DNA of 38,454 nucleotides from a virus, in IMG/VR virus record IMGVR_UViG_3300046516_000176, positions 1-38,454 of that record; one strand, written 5' to 3'. The position numbers and the translations under genes are program-made. The notes under the pieces were generated by a model. It was not told where the DNA came from. It worked only from the letters and a program-made list of their open reading frames with translations, and did not search any database. Below are positions 8,929-31,620 of this stretch, piece by piece; the first letter of the stretch is position 1; the number at the start of each line of letters is the position of its first letter.

Positions 8929-9993
8929 ATGAAAAAGATTATTTGCGCATTCATCGCGCTTTATTCGGCTTTCGCGTTTAGCGCAACGCTCAATCCGATT
9001 CAGTTGCTCAATCCTGCGGGCTCCTCGAGCGGTCAAGCTATCGTCTCGACGGGCGCATCGACGGCGCCGACATGGGGCAATGTGACACTCGGCGGATTGC
9101 AGGCGATCGCAGCAAATACCCTCATCGGTAATGCGACCGGATCCACTGCTAGTCCGACCGCGATCACGGTGGCAGGATGCAACGGCGCCGCTCAGGCTCT
9201 GCAATGGACGAACGGATCAGGATTCGGATGCAACTCTTCCGTCGCGACATCCGGTGCGAATACCAATATTACGAGCCTGAATTCCCCCGCGCTGGGCGCA
9301 GCAACTGCTACGACGGCTGCGGCAGGTACAAATACCACCCAGGTTGCCACGACTGCATTTGTACAAGGCATCAACGCTGGTCGGCTGCTCAACGTCCAGG
9401 TGTTCACGTCAAGCGGAACGTACACGCCGACGAGCGGCACGAACAAAGTCATAGTTGAGGTGCAGGCGCCTGGCGGTGGCGGTGGCGGTGTAGCGGCATC
9501 CTCAACGGGGCAAAACGCTATCGCGCAGGCCGGAAGCGGCGGGAGCTATGCAGAGATCTACTGGGCAAGCCCCGCGAGCACGACGGTAACAATCGGCGCG
9601 GTCGGAAGCGCAGGGGCTGCCGGAATAAACGCAGGCGGAACGGGTGGTGCGACGAGCGTCGGGTCCGTTGTTTCTTGCCCGGGAGGGGTTGGTGGGGCGG
9701 GCTCGGCGGGGCAAGCATCCGGCTTCACGCAGAACGGCGCGGCTGCTCCCGCTAATTGCACGATCTCCGGAGCAACGGTTATTCGAAACGTGGCGGGTGC
9801 AACTTCCGCGCCGGTGACGAACATGTCGTCAGCTGCTGCGTATCCGGTGAAGGGTGGGTATGCCGCCATGGGCTACAACACCAATGGCGGCAATGGATCA
9901 GGAGGCGATGGTGCGGCCATCCCCGCCAGCACGGGTGCGGCGGCCGGTATCACTGGGGTTGGTGGGAAAGTCATCTTCTACGAATATAACTGA
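8929..9993 (+). CDS. Gly-rich fibre/adhesin-like protein with a signal peptide (354 aa)
   Basis: Begins with a standard Sec signal peptide (MKKIICAFIALYSAFAFSA, likely cut near residue 19), unusual for a virion protein. Residues 20-165 are Ala/Thr/Ser/Asn-rich repeats of the kind seen in phage tail fibres (LNPAGSSSGQAIVSTGAS, then TNTTQVATTAFVQG). From about 170 a glycine-rich domain follows (VIVEVQAPGGGGGG and many GG/GAG turns), similar to the Gly-rich receptor-binding tips of some phage adhesins. It may be an exported accessory fibre or a cell-surface protein made late in infection. Weak ribosome site (GGGA). The last 96 bp overlap the convergent acyltransferase gene. Confidence 0.7.
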   Translation: MKKIICAFIALYSAFAFSATLNPIQLLNPAGSSSGQAIVSTGASTAPTWGNVTLGGLQAIAANTLIGNATGSTASPTAITVAGCNGAAQALQWTNGSGFGCNSSVATSGANTNITSLNSPALGAATATTAAAGTNTTQVATTAFVQGINAGRLLNVQVFTSSGTYTPTSGTNKVIVEVQAPGGGGGGVAASSTGQNAIAQAGSGGSYAEIYWASPASTTVTIGAVGSAGAAGINAGGTGGATSVGSVVSCPGGVGGAGSAGQASGFTQNGAAAPANCTISGATVIRNVAGATSAPVTNMSSAAAYPVKGGYAAMGYNTNGGNGSGGDGAAIPASTGAAAGITGVGGKVIFYEYN

Positions 9994-11190
9994 TCGACGG
10001 CGCGGCAGCAGCAACTTGCGCATCAATCGCCGCGCCGGCATCTCGAAGTATCGGTGTGTTCCAAGCGAAATCACGGCAATGGCTGCAAGCACAATCAGAG
10101 TGCGCACCGCGATAATCACCAGATTGTCGATAGCCGGCGCAAACGGAGAAGTAGGCGCCGACTTGTCGATCACAATCAGATGCAGCAGGTACATTGAATA
10201 GCTTGCCTCGCCTAGCGCCACTATCGGCGCGACTGAAAGCGGCTTAGGCTCGTAGCGCGCGCAGCAGAACACGATTACGGATATCGCCGGCAACAAGCCA
10301 ACACTCCACACCGCCCGCTGCGCATCGATGCTTATCAACTCGCTGCGAAACACGAACAGGCCGACATTAATCAGGGCGAGCGTGAGCGCGGCCAATCCAA
10401 TGATCCGCTCGCGCAGGGACGGTAGTCTCTCACTGATCGAATTGAACGCTTGCGCAATCGCGCATCCAGTCAAAAACTCAAATACGCGCGGGTATGGAGC
10501 AATGTACTTGAACCAGTCGGAGAAGATCTCGTTTGGTATCGCCAGCGGGTTCTCAACGACGCCGATTCTTGCCGCCAGATAATCAATCGTTGCAGTGTGG
10601 TGCATGATCAGCGACAGCAGAGCGGCTGACGCCACGATGATCACCACGGTGATCGCCAGAGAGTGTCGCCCACCAGCGCGCCGCATCATAAGCAGGCAGA
10701 TTAGCGGGTACGTCAGATACAGAAAAAACTCCGTACTGATCGACCACGCAACGTTCGTGAAGTTGTACGGGAACGCGATCGGATGGTTTCCGACGAAGCC
10801 GTAGAACCAGCTCTGTGTAGCCGTCAGCGTGTACGGCAGCGCGGCGAAATAGCTGGCGCGCTCGTCTGGCTGGTACAAAAACCAGTTTCCGGAACTCACG
10901 TCATACACAATGAGAGCGAGCAGGAGCGGGTAGAGGCGACTGAATCGAGCGACGCCGAAAGCGTACAGGCCGCGAATCGACGTAACCGAGTGCGAGTAGT
11001 TGTAGTGAATGATGAAGCCGCTCATGACGAAGAAGAGCGACATTCCTACAAATGCAAGCTGGTGCATCGATTCGAAGAATGGAACGCCAGTCTTCAGCTT
11101 GAAGAACGTCGGCCACAGGTGATCCATCACGATCGCCGCAGCAGCGGCAAATCTCAAGCCGGTCAGCGCCGGCAGATCCTGTCGTTTCAT
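9898..11190 (-). CDS. acyltransferase family 3 membrane protein (430 aa), O-antigen modification candidate
   Basis: Multi-spanning inner-membrane acyltransferase of the OafA/acyltransferase-3 type, which moves acetyl or other acyl groups to surface sugars. The N-terminus has the family signature LPALTGLRFAAAAAIVMDHL with the catalytic-type His, then MSLFFVMSGFIIHY and about ten hydrophobic helices. The C-terminal 40 residues are charged and encoded antisense to the fibre-like gene (96-bp overlap). Located just after the late genes on the opposite strand, with its own promoter candidate at 11436-11463, it fits a lysogenic-conversion gene altering O-antigen and phage adsorption. It is transcribed with the RMF-like gene upstream. 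Confidence 0.88.
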   Translation of the reverse strand: MKRQDLPALTGLRFAAAAAIVMDHLWPTFFKLKTGVPFFESMHQLAFVGMSLFFVMSGFIIHYNYSHSVTSIRGLYAFGVARFSRLYPLLLALIVYDVSSGNWFLYQPDERASYFAALPYTLTATQSWFYGFVGNHPIAFPYNFTNVAWSISTEFFLYLTYPLICLLMMRRAGGRHSLAITVVIIVASAALLSLIMHHTATIDYLAARIGVVENPLAIPNEIFSDWFKYIAPYPRVFEFLTGCAIAQAFNSISERLPSLRERIIGLAALTLALINVGLFVFRSELISIDAQRAVWSVGLLPAISVIVFCCARYEPKPLSVAPIVALGEASYSMYLLHLIVIDKSAPTSPFAPAIDNLVIIAVRTLIVLAAIAVISLGTHRYFEMPARRLMRKLLLPRRRSVIFVEDDFPTNPSDTGRRTRAGGDGRTIAS

Positions 11191-11435: not shown

Positions 11436-11463
11436 ATGATACATCAGACTTGACTGCGGTCAT
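11436..11463 (-). promoter_or_regulatory. candidate sigma-70 promoter for the RMF-like/acyltransferase pair
   Basis: On the minus strand, ATGACC (11458-11463) and TATCAT (11436-11441) are separated by 16 bp; the -10 matches consensus at five of six positions. It lies about 43 nt upstream of ATG 11393 and carries none of the switch operators, so expression would not depend on the repressor. Confidence 0.45.
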
Positions 11464-11482
11464 CCCGCCTAGAATGCCCGGC

Positions 11483-11710
11483 ATGGAAGACGCCACAACC
11501 AACGCCACCGAATACCTGCTCGAGCGGGCCGCGATCATGGAAATTGACGGCGGCCTGAAACGGTACGATGCAGAGTTCTATGCTGTCGTGGCGACGTGGC
11601 GATTCTGTCAGCGCACGGGCGCGCGGGAACCATCGGCGCTGAGCTACAAATACCGCAGCCGCGGCTTTACGGGCGATGAAGCCCGTGAGCCGGGCGAGAA
11701 GCGCGATTAA
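11483..11710 (+). CDS. small hypothetical protein (75 aa)
   Basis: Isolated rightward gene between two leftward transcription units. The N-terminal part, ERAAIMEIDGGLKRYDAE, is a motif I recognise from small unannotated proteins in phages and plasmids. The function is unknown. The start is uncertain: ATG 11483 and ATG 11474 are close together and neither has a strong ribosome site. The last four bases overlap the convergent end of the integrase gene. The C-terminus is Arg/Glu-rich and probably disordered. Confidence 0.55.
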   Translation: MEDATTNATEYLLERAAIMEIDGGLKRYDAEFYAVVATWRFCQRTGAREPSALSYKYRSRGFTGDEAREPGEKRD

Positions 11711-13314
11711 CCTCGCGCGTGCAACAGCACGCGACGCCTACAAATTACAAATCCTGTCCCCGCAACCGAATTTGTAGGCGTGCCGCCTGAAGCAATCAGA
11801 AGCCGTTGGGCGGCACTCTCATACTCGGCGAAGATCTGCTCCCCATCTGCAACAATCCGGATTTCCCCAAATAGCTGAGCCACGATTTTCCGCGCTCGCT
11901 CAACGTCTCCTTCAAGCTCCGCCTTCAAGTCCATCAGCTTTTTCTTGAAGCGCGCGACGATCTTGTCTGCCGGTTCCTCTTTCGCTGCGATCGGCACCGG
12001 CAACGCAACCAGTTTCTTTTTCTCAGCTTCAGCAGCGCGAAGACGCGCGACTATCGCATCGGACGATCCGACCTGTGCGAGTGCGTCGACCAGCCTTCCG
12101 ATCTCTGCGTCGAGCGCTTCGCGGCGCTTGCGGATCTCTGCGCCAGTGTCGCGGTGCGCGCGGCTGCGCTCCTGTAGCGCTGCACGCAGACGCCGCTCAA
12201 GATCGCGCTGCGTGGCCGGCGACAACAGTTCATCGCGCAGATCGCCGAGCAACCTGACATCAGCTTTGTCGCGCGGGAAGCGGATGCCAGCGCACACCGC
12301 AGGCCCGCGATCGTGCCGCGCGGTGCAGCCGTAGAAGCGCTTGTCGATGGCGACGACCGAGCCGCCGCAGTGCGGGCAGCGCATGAGGCCGCCGAGCAAT
12401 GTGCGGGTAGGGCGCCCGCGTCCTTTTCCTGGCTTTGCGCGCTTCGTGTCGATGTAATGGCGTGCGGCGGTCCACAGGTCATCGCTGACAATGCGCAACT
12501 CGGGCACTTCGGCCACCTTCCATTCATCGCGCGGGCGCTCGACGCGCTGACGCTTGCCAGTGTCAGGATCTTTCAACCACTGCGAGCGATTCCAGATCAG
12601 GCGGCCGGCATACAGTTCGTTGTTGAGAATGCCGCTTCCCTTGTTCGGGCAACCGTATAGCGCCGAGACTGCCCAGCTTCCCCCACGCGGCGACGCGATG
12701 TTACGTGCATTCAACTCGTGCGCGATCTTCTGAACACTCCATCCATCGGTGATGAACTTCGCGTAGATCCAGCGCACCCACTGCGCCTCGACGTTGTTGA
12801 CGACGTACCTGCTGCCAGCGTCGGTCTTCTCGATGTCGTATCCGTAGCTGGCGCCGCCGGCGATGAAGCCGCGCTCGAACTGGCCGGACTGGCCGCGGTG
12901 CGTCTTGTGCCGCAGATCGTCGAGATACAGCTCGTTGATCATGCCGCGCACGCCGCGCATGATCTTGCGCGCGCCCATCTGGCTATCGTAGCCATCTGCC
13001 ACGCCGACTATGCGCAGCCCGCGGTGCTCGAGGCGGCGAACGATGCGCTCCTGTTCTACCTGGTCGCGCGAGAGTCGATCAAGCCCCTCCACGATCAACA
13101 CGTCGAACCGGTCGGCGAGCGCGTCGGCCAACAGGTGCGAACCACCCGGGCGCGCCGCGACCGGCACGCTGCCCGATACGCCTTCGTCGCGGTACTGGCC
13201 GACGACCGTCATACCCTCGGCCGCCGCGCGCGACGTGCACACGCGGATCTGGTCGGCGACGGACGTCTCGCGCTGCTTGTCGGTCGAGAAGCGGGAATAG
13301 ATCAGTGCACGCAT
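11707..13314 (-). CDS. int: large serine recombinase, phage integrase (535 aa)
   Basis: Serine integrase that should insert and excise the phage genome. Order of domains: resolvase catalytic domain (about 1-150) with YSRFSTDKQ containing nucleophile Ser10 and GLDRLSRDQ; recombinase domain (about 160-270); zinc ribbon (CPHCGG, later Cys in TARHDRGPAVC); a long Arg/Lys/Glu-rich coiled coil (about 375-480). ATG 13314 is chosen because a longer frame to 13425 adds an Arg-rich stretch unlike the family. It overlaps the upstream small gene by 13 bp. The last 25 codons lie in a 48-bp inverted-repeat structure that looks like attP, so integration would change the enzyme's C-terminus. It is the last gene of the leftward early operon. 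Confidence 0.93.
   Translation of the reverse strand: MRALIYSRFSTDKQRETSVADQIRVCTSRAAAEGMTVVGQYRDEGVSGSVPVAARPGGSHLLADALADRFDVLIVEGLDRLSRDQVEQERIVRRLEHRGLRIVGVADGYDSQMGARKIMRGVRGMINELYLDDLRHKTHRGQSGQFERGFIAGGASYGYDIEKTDAGSRYVVNNVEAQWVRWIYAKFITDGWSVQKIAHELNARNIASPRGGSWAVSALYGCPNKGSGILNNELYAGRLIWNRSQWLKDPDTGKRQRVERPRDEWKVAEVPELRIVSDDLWTAARHYIDTKRAKPGKGRGRPTRTLLGGLMRCPHCGGSVVAIDKRFYGCTARHDRGPAVCAGIRFPRDKADVRLLGDLRDELLSPATQRDLERRLRAALQERSRAHRDTGAEIRKRREALDAEIGRLVDALAQVGSSDAIVARLRAAEAEKKKLVALPVPIAAKEEPADKIVARFKKKLMDLKAELEGDVERARKIVAQLFGEIRIVADGEQIFAEYESAAQRLLIASGGTPTNSVAGTGFVICRRRVLLHARG
11734..11781. other. candidate attP with tRNA-fMet-like core
   Basis: A perfect 13-bp inverted repeat, ACGCCTACAAATT (11734-11746) and AATTTGTAGGCGT (11769-11781), flanks 22 bp. 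Total length is 48 bp, the usual size of a serine-integrase attP. The centred 20 bp CAAATCCTGTCCCCGCAACC (11748-11767) read as the T-loop and acceptor strand of initiator tRNA-Met; the E. coli gene differs at two T-stem positions in my recollection. It lies inside the integrase 3' coding end. The exact crossover dinucleotide is not known; the symmetry centre is TC at 11757-11758. Confidence 0.7.
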
Positions 13315-13451
13315 TCTGTTTGTGTTGATTCTTGTGCGGATTGTTGGCGGATGCGGTCCTCGGCGCGCTCGGCGAGAATGTCGTCGGCAACACGCTCGGC
13401 TAGGAAGTCGAGCAGGTCGGACCATGCATCAGGATTCTTTTCGGCGAACAT
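13302..13451 (-). CDS. small acidic helical protein upstream of integrase (49 aa)
   Basis: Short gene directly upstream of and overlapping the integrase (13 bp). ATG 13451 follows a GGGGGTG ribosome site. The protein is a predicted amphipathic helix rich in Asp, Glu, Ala and Arg (DAWSDLLDFLAERVADDILA), then a polar tail. Its tight coupling to int suggests a partner or regulator such as a recombination directionality factor, but nothing in the sequence proves that. No family recognised. Confidence 0.6.
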   Translation of the reverse strand: MFAEKNPDAWSDLLDFLAERVADDILAERAEDRIRQQSAQESTQTECVH

Positions 13452-29457: not shown

Positions 29458-31620
29458 ATGGCACGCAAACGCAAATCCGACGACGCTGAAGCGAGCGGGC
29501 TGGACCCGATCGTCAAGGAAGCCAAGGAGAGGTTCGCCCGTTGCGAGGACGCCGAAAGCACATTCCGCCAGCTGTTCGTCGAGGATATGAAGTTCGCCAA
29601 CGGCGACCCGGACAACAACTGGCAGTGGCCAGATCAGATCCGTCAGTCGCGCGACGGCGACAACCGGCCGTGCCTGACGATCAACAAGGTACGCCAGCAC
29701 AATTTGCAGATAATCAACGACGCGAAACAGAACAAGCCGAGCATCAAGACGCTGCCGATCGACGGTCAGGCCGACATCCAGATCGCCAAGATTCTGGACG
29801 GCATCATGCGGCACATCGAGTACAACTCGCACGCCGAGATCGCCTATGACACGGCGACGGAGTTTGCGGTGCAGGGCGGCTTGGGCTACTGGCGCGTCGT
29901 GACCGAATATGCGCACGATGGCTCATTCGAGCAGGAAATCTTCATCCGCCGCGTGAAAGACCCGCTGAGCGTCTATCTCGACCCGGATATCCAGTCTGCT
30001 GACGGCGCCGATGCGAAGTTCGGTTTTGTGTTCGAAGACGTGCCGAAAGACGAATATGAGGCGATGTATCCAGAAGCGGACCCGGCGAGCGTCACGTTCC
30101 CGATGTCGGCGACCGGCGATCCGTGGCTCGACAAGAACCATGTGCGCGTGTGCGAATACTTCCGCCGTGCGGAAAAGACTGACACGCTGGTCAATCACCC
30201 GGTGAAAGGCCCGGTCCGTCTGTCCGAAATCGATGATGAGGACGAGCGCAAAGCGCTTCAGTCTGACGATAGCGTGAAGAAGCGCCAGGTCAGCGAGCCG
30301 CATTTCGAGTGGTACAAGATCGCCGGTGACAAGATCATCGACCGCAAGGAATGGCCCGGCCGCTATCTGCCGATCGTGCGCGTCGTCGGCGAGGAAATCG
30401 TCATCAACGGCAAGGTCGAGCGCAAGGGTCATACGCGGAACATGAAAGACGGCCAGCGCATGTATAACTACATGTCGTCGGCGAACGTCGAATACATAGC
30501 GTTGCAGACCAAGACGCCGTATGTAGCATCGGCCGAAGCGGTTGAGGGATATGAGGACGAATGGGCGAACGCGAACAAGGACAACAAGGCGTATCTGCCC
30601 TACAACGGGATGCGCGAGGACGGCTCGCAGATTGAGCGCCCCATGCGCGAGCAGCCTCCTGTAGGCGCTTCTGCGTACCTACAAGCCATGCAGACGGCCC
30701 AGCAGGAACTGATGATGACCTCGGGCCAGTATCAGGAGCAGTTCGGTGCGCCGTCGAATGCCGATGCGGGTGTTGCGATCGCCGCGCGCCAGCGTCAGGG
30801 CGACAAGGCGACGTATCACTTCATCGACAACGTTGCTCGAGCAATCCGCTACACCGGCCGCATCATGGTCGACCTGATCCCGAAGATTTACGACACCCAG
30901 CGCGTGGTCCGGATCGTCGGCGAGGACGGTAGCGAGGACTTCGCGCAGATCAATCCGGAGCAGCCGCATGCGGTGGGTGACCAGCAGGGTAATGCGCAGC
31001 CTGCGCCAGCCGATAACTCAAAGCTGAGCGCCGCGCAGGCTGCGCAACTGATCTACAACCCCGGCATTGGCCGCTACGACGTGACTGTCGAGGTCGGCCC
31101 GAGCTACGAAACGCGCCGTCAGGAAGCCTTCCACGCGCTCACGCAGATCATGTCGCAGGATCAGGATCTGATGAAGGTCGCGGGCGATCTGCTGTTCAAG
31201 GCCGCAGACTTCCCGATGGCTGAAGAGGTCGCTGAGCGTCTGCATCGCACGATCCCGCCTCAGATACTGGGCGAAGGCCCGACGCCGGCGGAAGCGGACA
31301 TGGAGCAGAAAATGCAGCAGATGGAGCAGATGATCAACCATCTGTCGCAGGCATTACAGGACGCGCGCACTGGAAAGGATATCGACGAGGTCAAGATCAA
31401 GGCATACGACGCTGAGACGAAGCGCTTGCAGGCGCTCGGCCAGCCGCTTGACCCGCAAATCGTCGCGCACGTCGCAACACAGGTCGTTATGCAAATGATG
31501 CAGACCGGCTCACCGGACGATCCCGCCAGCGGCGCACCGCCAATGGCAATGCCGCAGCAGCAACCCCAACCGAACCCGCCGAGCGCGGGTTTTTCTTTGC
31601 CCGCTCCCCAAGGACAGTGA
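29458..31620 (+). CDS. portal protein, P22 gp1-like (720 aa)
   Basis: Dodecameric portal at the head vertex. The length (P22 portal is 725 aa), the position after terL and the body (DMKFANGDPDNNWQWPDQIR, CLTINKVRQHNLQIINDAKQ, YDTATEFAVQGGLGYWRVVT) match the P22-type portal family. The C-terminal part has a Gln/Met-rich coiled-coil barrel-like region (MEQKMQQMEQMINHLSQALQ) and a Pro/Gln-rich tail. Starts 3 nt after terL. Confidence 0.92.
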   Translation: MARKRKSDDAEASGLDPIVKEAKERFARCEDAESTFRQLFVEDMKFANGDPDNNWQWPDQIRQSRDGDNRPCLTINKVRQHNLQIINDAKQNKPSIKTLPIDGQADIQIAKILDGIMRHIEYNSHAEIAYDTATEFAVQGGLGYWRVVTEYAHDGSFEQEIFIRRVKDPLSVYLDPDIQSADGADAKFGFVFEDVPKDEYEAMYPEADPASVTFPMSATGDPWLDKNHVRVCEYFRRAEKTDTLVNHPVKGPVRLSEIDDEDERKALQSDDSVKKRQVSEPHFEWYKIAGDKIIDRKEWPGRYLPIVRVVGEEIVINGKVERKGHTRNMKDGQRMYNYMSSANVEYIALQTKTPYVASAEAVEGYEDEWANANKDNKAYLPYNGMREDGSQIERPMREQPPVGASAYLQAMQTAQQELMMTSGQYQEQFGAPSNADAGVAIAARQRQGDKATYHFIDNVARAIRYTGRIMVDLIPKIYDTQRVVRIVGEDGSEDFAQINPEQPHAVGDQQGNAQPAPADNSKLSAAQAAQLIYNPGIGRYDVTVEVGPSYETRRQEAFHALTQIMSQDQDLMKVAGDLLFKAADFPMAEEVAERLHRTIPPQILGEGPTPAEADMEQKMQQMEQMINHLSQALQDARTGKDIDEVKIKAYDAETKRLQALGQPLDPQIVAHVATQVVMQMMQTGSPDDPASGAPPMAMPQQQPQPNPPSAGFSLPAPQGQ

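Follow-up and report, generated by a model that had tools for sequence, protein, structure and literature searches.

A putative serine-integrase attP built around the 3′ end of tRNA-fMet in a P22-like podophage

What is the function of a perfect inverted repeat that lies inside the 3′ end of a phage integrase gene and encloses a piece of initiator tRNA? The question is raised by a viral contig of 38,454 nucleotides (IMG/VR record IMGVR_UViG_3300046516_000176; the whole stretch is called the window below). On the comparative evidence given here, we think it very probable that these 48 bp serve as attP in a temperate P22-like podophage, whose large serine integrase would recombine them with an attB within the 3′ end of the gene for the host's initiator tRNA (tRNA-fMet).

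The inverted repeat and the integrase gene that contains it

A direct read of the site gives ACGCCTACAAATT (11734-11746), ACAAATCCTGTCCCCGCAACCG (11747-11768), and AATTTGTAGGCGT (11769-11781). The outer segments are perfect 13-bp reverse complements with 22 bp between them, and a 20-mer is exactly centred in the repeat, so that the dyad axis falls between 11757 and 11758; this is the geometry that the initial annotation had described. An exhaustive scan of the window for perfect inverted repeats (arms of 13 bp or more, spacer no longer than 40) found two places, against a rough chance expectation of about 0.02. The other place, at 30993-31046 (14-bp arms, 26-bp spacer), lies inside the portal gene and is probably codon-driven. 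The 20-mer is present in a single copy in the window, even when 3 mismatches are allowed, and shuffled sequences give 0.01. As the same annotation had proposed, the site lies within the integrase gene, in the 3′ end of the open reading frame 11707-13425 of the minus strand (Table 1). It is uninterrupted at 11.7 kb of the contig, as expected for unintegrated phage DNA.

Table 1. Position of the putative attP and of the neighbouring features in the window
Feature	Position	Strand	Basis
attP, 48 bp (about 50 bp with flanks): P arm, centre, P′ arm	11734..11781		Perfect inverted repeat; axis kept in 30 dereplicated sites
20-bp core, identical to the 3′ end of tRNA-fMet	11748..11767	+	Sequence identity
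Putative central (crossover) dinucleotide TC, tRNA nt 65/66	11757..11758	+	Dyad axis; attL/attR comparison
86-aa ORF on the P-arm side, running toward the integrase; expected at attR	11450..11710	+	PHROG of unknown function
Large serine integrase (535 aa if translated from M38, the likely start; ORF open to 13425)	11707..13314	-	Pfam Resolvase, Recombinase, Zn_ribbon_recom; translation; alignment; virus-form tail SVAGTGFVICRRRVLLHARG

The encoded protein matches the Pfam families Resolvase (PF00239, 3.8e-25) and Recombinase (PF07508, 1.3e-22), and its zinc ribbon (PF13408) scores 22.4 bits, under the Pfam cut-off of 25.3, with the cysteines CPHC...C...C present. Residues R8, S10, R80, and R83 of the serine-recombinase active site are invariant in the alignment, and M38 (13314) is the likely start because the alignable sequence begins there. 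The attP forms the 3′ end of the gene, and the virus form of the protein ends GFVICRRRVLLHARG. Outside this region the window encodes a P22-like podophage, with portal, head closure, terminase, coat, and RecT/exonuclease modules; its DNA similarity to sequenced phages is minimal. Adjoining the tail fibre genes is an O-acetyltransferase/O-antigen acetylase-like gene (9898-11190, minus strand), likely a lysogenic-conversion gene.

A tRNA-fMet core at the centre of a conserved dyad

The reading of the core as the T-loop and acceptor strand of tRNA-fMet proved correct letter for letter: the 20-mer consists of CAAAT (T-loop), CCTGT (3′ strand of the T-stem), CCCCGCA (3′ strand of the acceptor stem), the discriminator, and CC. 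The match stops at C75, and base 76 (position 11768) is G, not A. The same 20-mer is found in intact tRNA-fMet genes, for example at locus L269. In 83 of 83 viral contigs carrying the 20-mer it is preceded by GGTT, which is tRNA sequence, whereas the window alone has ATTA; the site is therefore not the remnant of a tRNA gene with its 5′ part. A search of host tRNA-fMet genes, which had been proposed as a check, recovered GGTT followed by the 20-mer, intact, both in the family of the beta-proteobacterial Herbaspirillum frisingense (227 of 393 genomes) and in the genus of Paraburkholderia sacchari (48 of 146).

The arms around this core were compared in a set of 40 attP sites, comprising the window's, 9 that were rebuilt in script from attR and attL, and 30 that were free or core-only. 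Sites were picked by the presence of an acceptor core next to int, not by symmetry, and arm symmetry was scored around shifted axes. Among 30 dereplicated sites, the symmetry of the outer arms (positions 11-25) was 0.54 at the window's axis, compared to a mean of 0.26 (sd 0.03, maximum 0.31) elsewhere, and arms in their own pairs scored 0.54 compared to 0.33 (sd 0.025) for re-paired arms, with 0 of 20,000 re-pairings as good, although these figures are not independent-sample probabilities because the attP sites share ancestry. In the dereplicated set, symmetry runs 25 bp per side and falls to background from position 26; position 1 is symmetric in none of the 30. The axis is conserved across these sites although the arm sequences differ. 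An attP of a serine integrase is expected to be about 50 bp long and two-fold symmetric with 25-bp half-sites, and the 30-site set has this form, which upholds the earlier suggestion that the size and symmetry of the repeat fit such a site. A shifted zinc-domain motif in attB was also considered, but visual inspection showed it to be too weak to keep.

Integration of related phages at tRNA-fMet

A single-protein query found no relatives in genome contigs; an alignment-led search succeeded, yielding loci with related integrases, 80 of them bacterial and 80 viral. The integrase ends in an antisense tRNA-fMet in 58 of the 80 bacterial loci (the whole gene in 47, its 3′ half in 11), usually with the tRNA at one offset from the integrase stop (-43 to +33). 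A further 13 have just the acceptor-strand core at the 3′ end of int. For the remainder, the contig stops within the gene in 4 and no tRNA is recognised by pattern in 5, although ARAGORN calls a tRNA-Met in one of these five (L161). Two clade members, L096 and L098, have neither tRNA nor core at the integrase end. In the tree, the window falls within 7-row (100/95) and 14-row (100/98) clades of fMet users.

This placement bears on whether a real attP might naturally be directed at some other tRNA whose 3′ end is alike, or at several sites. The tails of two distant relatives, L239 and L246 (EGFEPPTxGL), suggest that these end in some other tRNA, perhaps a different one with a CAT anticodon. However, the window's 20-mer matches tRNA-fMet exactly and its own clade uses tRNA-fMet throughout, and we consider another target highly improbable.

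With tRNA-fMet as the target, related prophages would be expected to carry matching attL and attR sites there, and looking for them had been the second proposed check. Related serine integrases do sit in tRNA-fMet, and both attL (tRNA plus P′ arm) and attR (P arm plus B′) were mapped in Herbaspirillum, Glaciimonas (G001), P. sacchari (G005), genomes G090 and G060, and several viral records; in Herbaspirillum G008 contig 74 the two lie 36.6 kb apart. No integrated copy of the exact window phage was found. P and B differ at -2 (G022), at -3 (G090), and further left, while the right half is common to +10/+11, so that the exchange falls between about -1 and +11. At -1, P and B agree in the mapped pairs with the exception of P. 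sacchari, whose attL and attR differ there, beside the proposed crossover. This is the only awkward pair, and it needs a later mutation or a mismatch.

These ends also bear on the possibility that the tRNA piece was left over from an earlier tyrosine-integrase attP at tRNA-fMet and that the serine integrase now uses another site. Tyrosine-integrase elements are common at tRNA-fMet and share the 3′ half of the tRNA with the host (this analysis and a Paracoccus survey, PMC6536676), but the block they share begins at the anticodon (CTCATAACC) and reaches CCA; the window holds the last 20 bp only. Moreover, the core is exactly centred in a dyad of 25 bp per side, serine integrases conserve the axis of that dyad, and their prophages end exactly there. 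We give the relic reading very little credence. Least probable of all is that the repeat folds as an RNA hairpin, such as a terminator, separating the integrase from the 86-aa ORF that converges on it, and matches the tRNA incidentally: it does sit where two genes converge, but its 22-nt loop is a tRNA 3′ end (chance 0.01), no T run follows either arm, and the arms vary together around a fixed centre in relatives.

Related prophages integrated elsewhere had been named in advance as evidence against a tRNA-fMet attP. The closest backbone relative of the window is a Paraburkholderia prophage (L298-L301, G472:C10:180000-255000), with a portal 86% identical in amino acids and long collinear matches. 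At the place of the window's serine module it has a phage-type tyrosine integrase, named from its sequence, beside tRNA-Arg(CCT). This prophage does lie at another tRNA, but with a tyrosine integrase, so that it represents a module swap and leaves the attP reading standing; phages that are otherwise alike can thus exchange the serine-fMet module.

If the repeat acts as attP in the 3′ end of tRNA-fMet, the exchange would take place at TC, at the junction of T-stem and acceptor stem. Host nt 1-65 would be kept and nt 66-75 would come from the phage: a dyad axis at nt 65/66 means that the phage supplies the acceptor strand, and host and phage parts together would rebuild the tRNA gene at attL. 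In the relatives, attL does carry a whole tRNA-fMet. When the window's P′ arm was joined in a model to an intact P. sacchari tRNA-fMet, ARAGORN still found a tRNA, ending CC-G, not CCA. The rebuilt window tRNA would thus lack the encoded terminal A, which most relatives supply; this final A would be restored by CCA-adding activity.

Because the integrase gene ends inside attP, integration would also replace its last codons. In relatives the tails (VAGxGFEPxTFxL) are translated from the tRNA in antisense, and the TGA stop arises at its anticodon (TT-ATG-A); in the window the same frame runs on into the P arm instead and yields the tail VAGTGFVICRRRVLLHARG. The prophage form of the window's integrase would be read from the tRNA antisense strand, stop at the anticodon, and end GFEPATFGL; in the modelled P. 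sacchari join it has 529 aa with this ending, compared to 535 aa ending LLHARG in the virus form. Prophage tails end FRL or FGL. Virus-form tails ending [AVLI]A make up 12 of 34 in the clade against an ORF baseline of 7%, a pattern noticed after the fact in a count that includes related rows, and the window's own virus-form tail ends ARG. The [AVLI]A ends resemble a ClpXP-type degron and suggest that integration may alter integrase stability. That integration is a built-in integrase switch, in which the tRNA-encoded tail replaces the virus-form tail and changes stability or directionality, strikes us as unlikely.

Several loci show more complex arrangements. In L155, L156, and L159, and also in L119 and others, the serine-integrase end shows homology to the tRNA from the anticodon onward only; in the first three, a tyrosine-type integrase adjoins the junction, apparently as tandem serine and tyrosine elements in one tRNA-fMet. 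L265 and L266 (G013) are two tandem serine-integrase prophages. The P arm of one abuts the P′ arm of the other, a junction that gives the second integrase a third kind of tail. Repeated (S)QVxMVAG blocks occur at the integrase C-termini of L112, L131, L137, L146, L148, L152, and L168, as if successive att exchanges had added tails. L084 is a 97% identical integrase fragment at the extreme end of a 92.9-kb viral contig, with its attP outside the contig.

For the relatives, then, comparison shows the target, the axis, the length of the site, the rebuilding of the tRNA, and the exchange of tails. That the window phage acts as they do, that TC is the exact dinucleotide, and that the host belongs to the Burkholderiaceae is what we infer from them.

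Comparison with known systems

Integration of serine recombinases into tRNA genes has been called rare, with phiRSM1 (tRNA-Ser) and mycobacterial AICEs (tRNA-Leu) named as cases (PMC3218068). The initial annotation's remark that serine integrases rarely use tRNA genes fits such published statements but fails as a rule for the window's clade. Like the window, phiRSM1 and the AICEs have serine recombinases in tRNA genes; they differ in using other tRNAs, and the phiRSM enzyme is described as resolvase-like, unlike the window's large serine integrase (PMC3218068). In a Sinorhizobium study, tRNA-integrated elements were essentially all of the tyrosine type. The Paracoccus survey reports one closer case, the Paracoccus aminophilus prophage vB_PamS_Pami6, which has a serine recombinase and is reported to be integrated in tRNA-Met(CAT); it is there the sole case with an identified site among 16 serine-recombinase prophages (PMC6536676).

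Use of tRNA genes by serine integrases was thus already known. We found no description in the open-access literature of a clade of serine integrases habitually at the initiator tRNA, and within that literature the systematic use of tRNA-fMet appears to be new. Relatives across Proteobacteria use this target, and serine integrases therefore include a widespread group that does so systematically: a large proteobacterial clade, from species of many families, directed at the T-stem/acceptor junction of an essential tRNA, a crossover point reached here by an enzyme class other than the usual tRNA integrators. Because tRNA-fMet is universal and strongly conserved, it would offer a ready-made attB in a great many Proteobacteria, which could serve integration vectors without a pre-placed landing pad. 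Sites of serine-integrase prophages are often reported without an assignment, as for all but one in the Paracoccus survey (PMC6536676). A fixed rule (dyad centre at nt 65/66, attP at the 3′ end of int) lets attP, attL, and attR be read off such prophages.

Three further systems can be compared with the site. The solved complex of the Listeria LI/A118 integrase with attP has 25-bp half-sites, with an inner recombinase-domain region that resembles attB and an outer zinc-domain region (PMC3783163); attPs of the window type share the 25-bp half-sites, a putative central dinucleotide, and an inner region common to attP and attB, and their half-sites divide into inner and outer parts in the same way. 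The window's attP lies inside int, unlike that of LI/A118. The LI/A118 target is, to our knowledge, not a tRNA gene.

Tyrosine-integrase prophages at tRNA-fMet have the same target gene and likewise rebuild the tRNA; their enzyme differs, and the block that they share with the host begins at the anticodon, whereas that of the window begins at the T-loop. In the integration-dependent switches of mycobacteriophages, attP lies inside a coding gene and integration changes the C-terminus of a phage protein, chiefly re-tailing the repressor. Integration of phages of the window type would also change the C-terminus of a phage protein, here the integrase itself.
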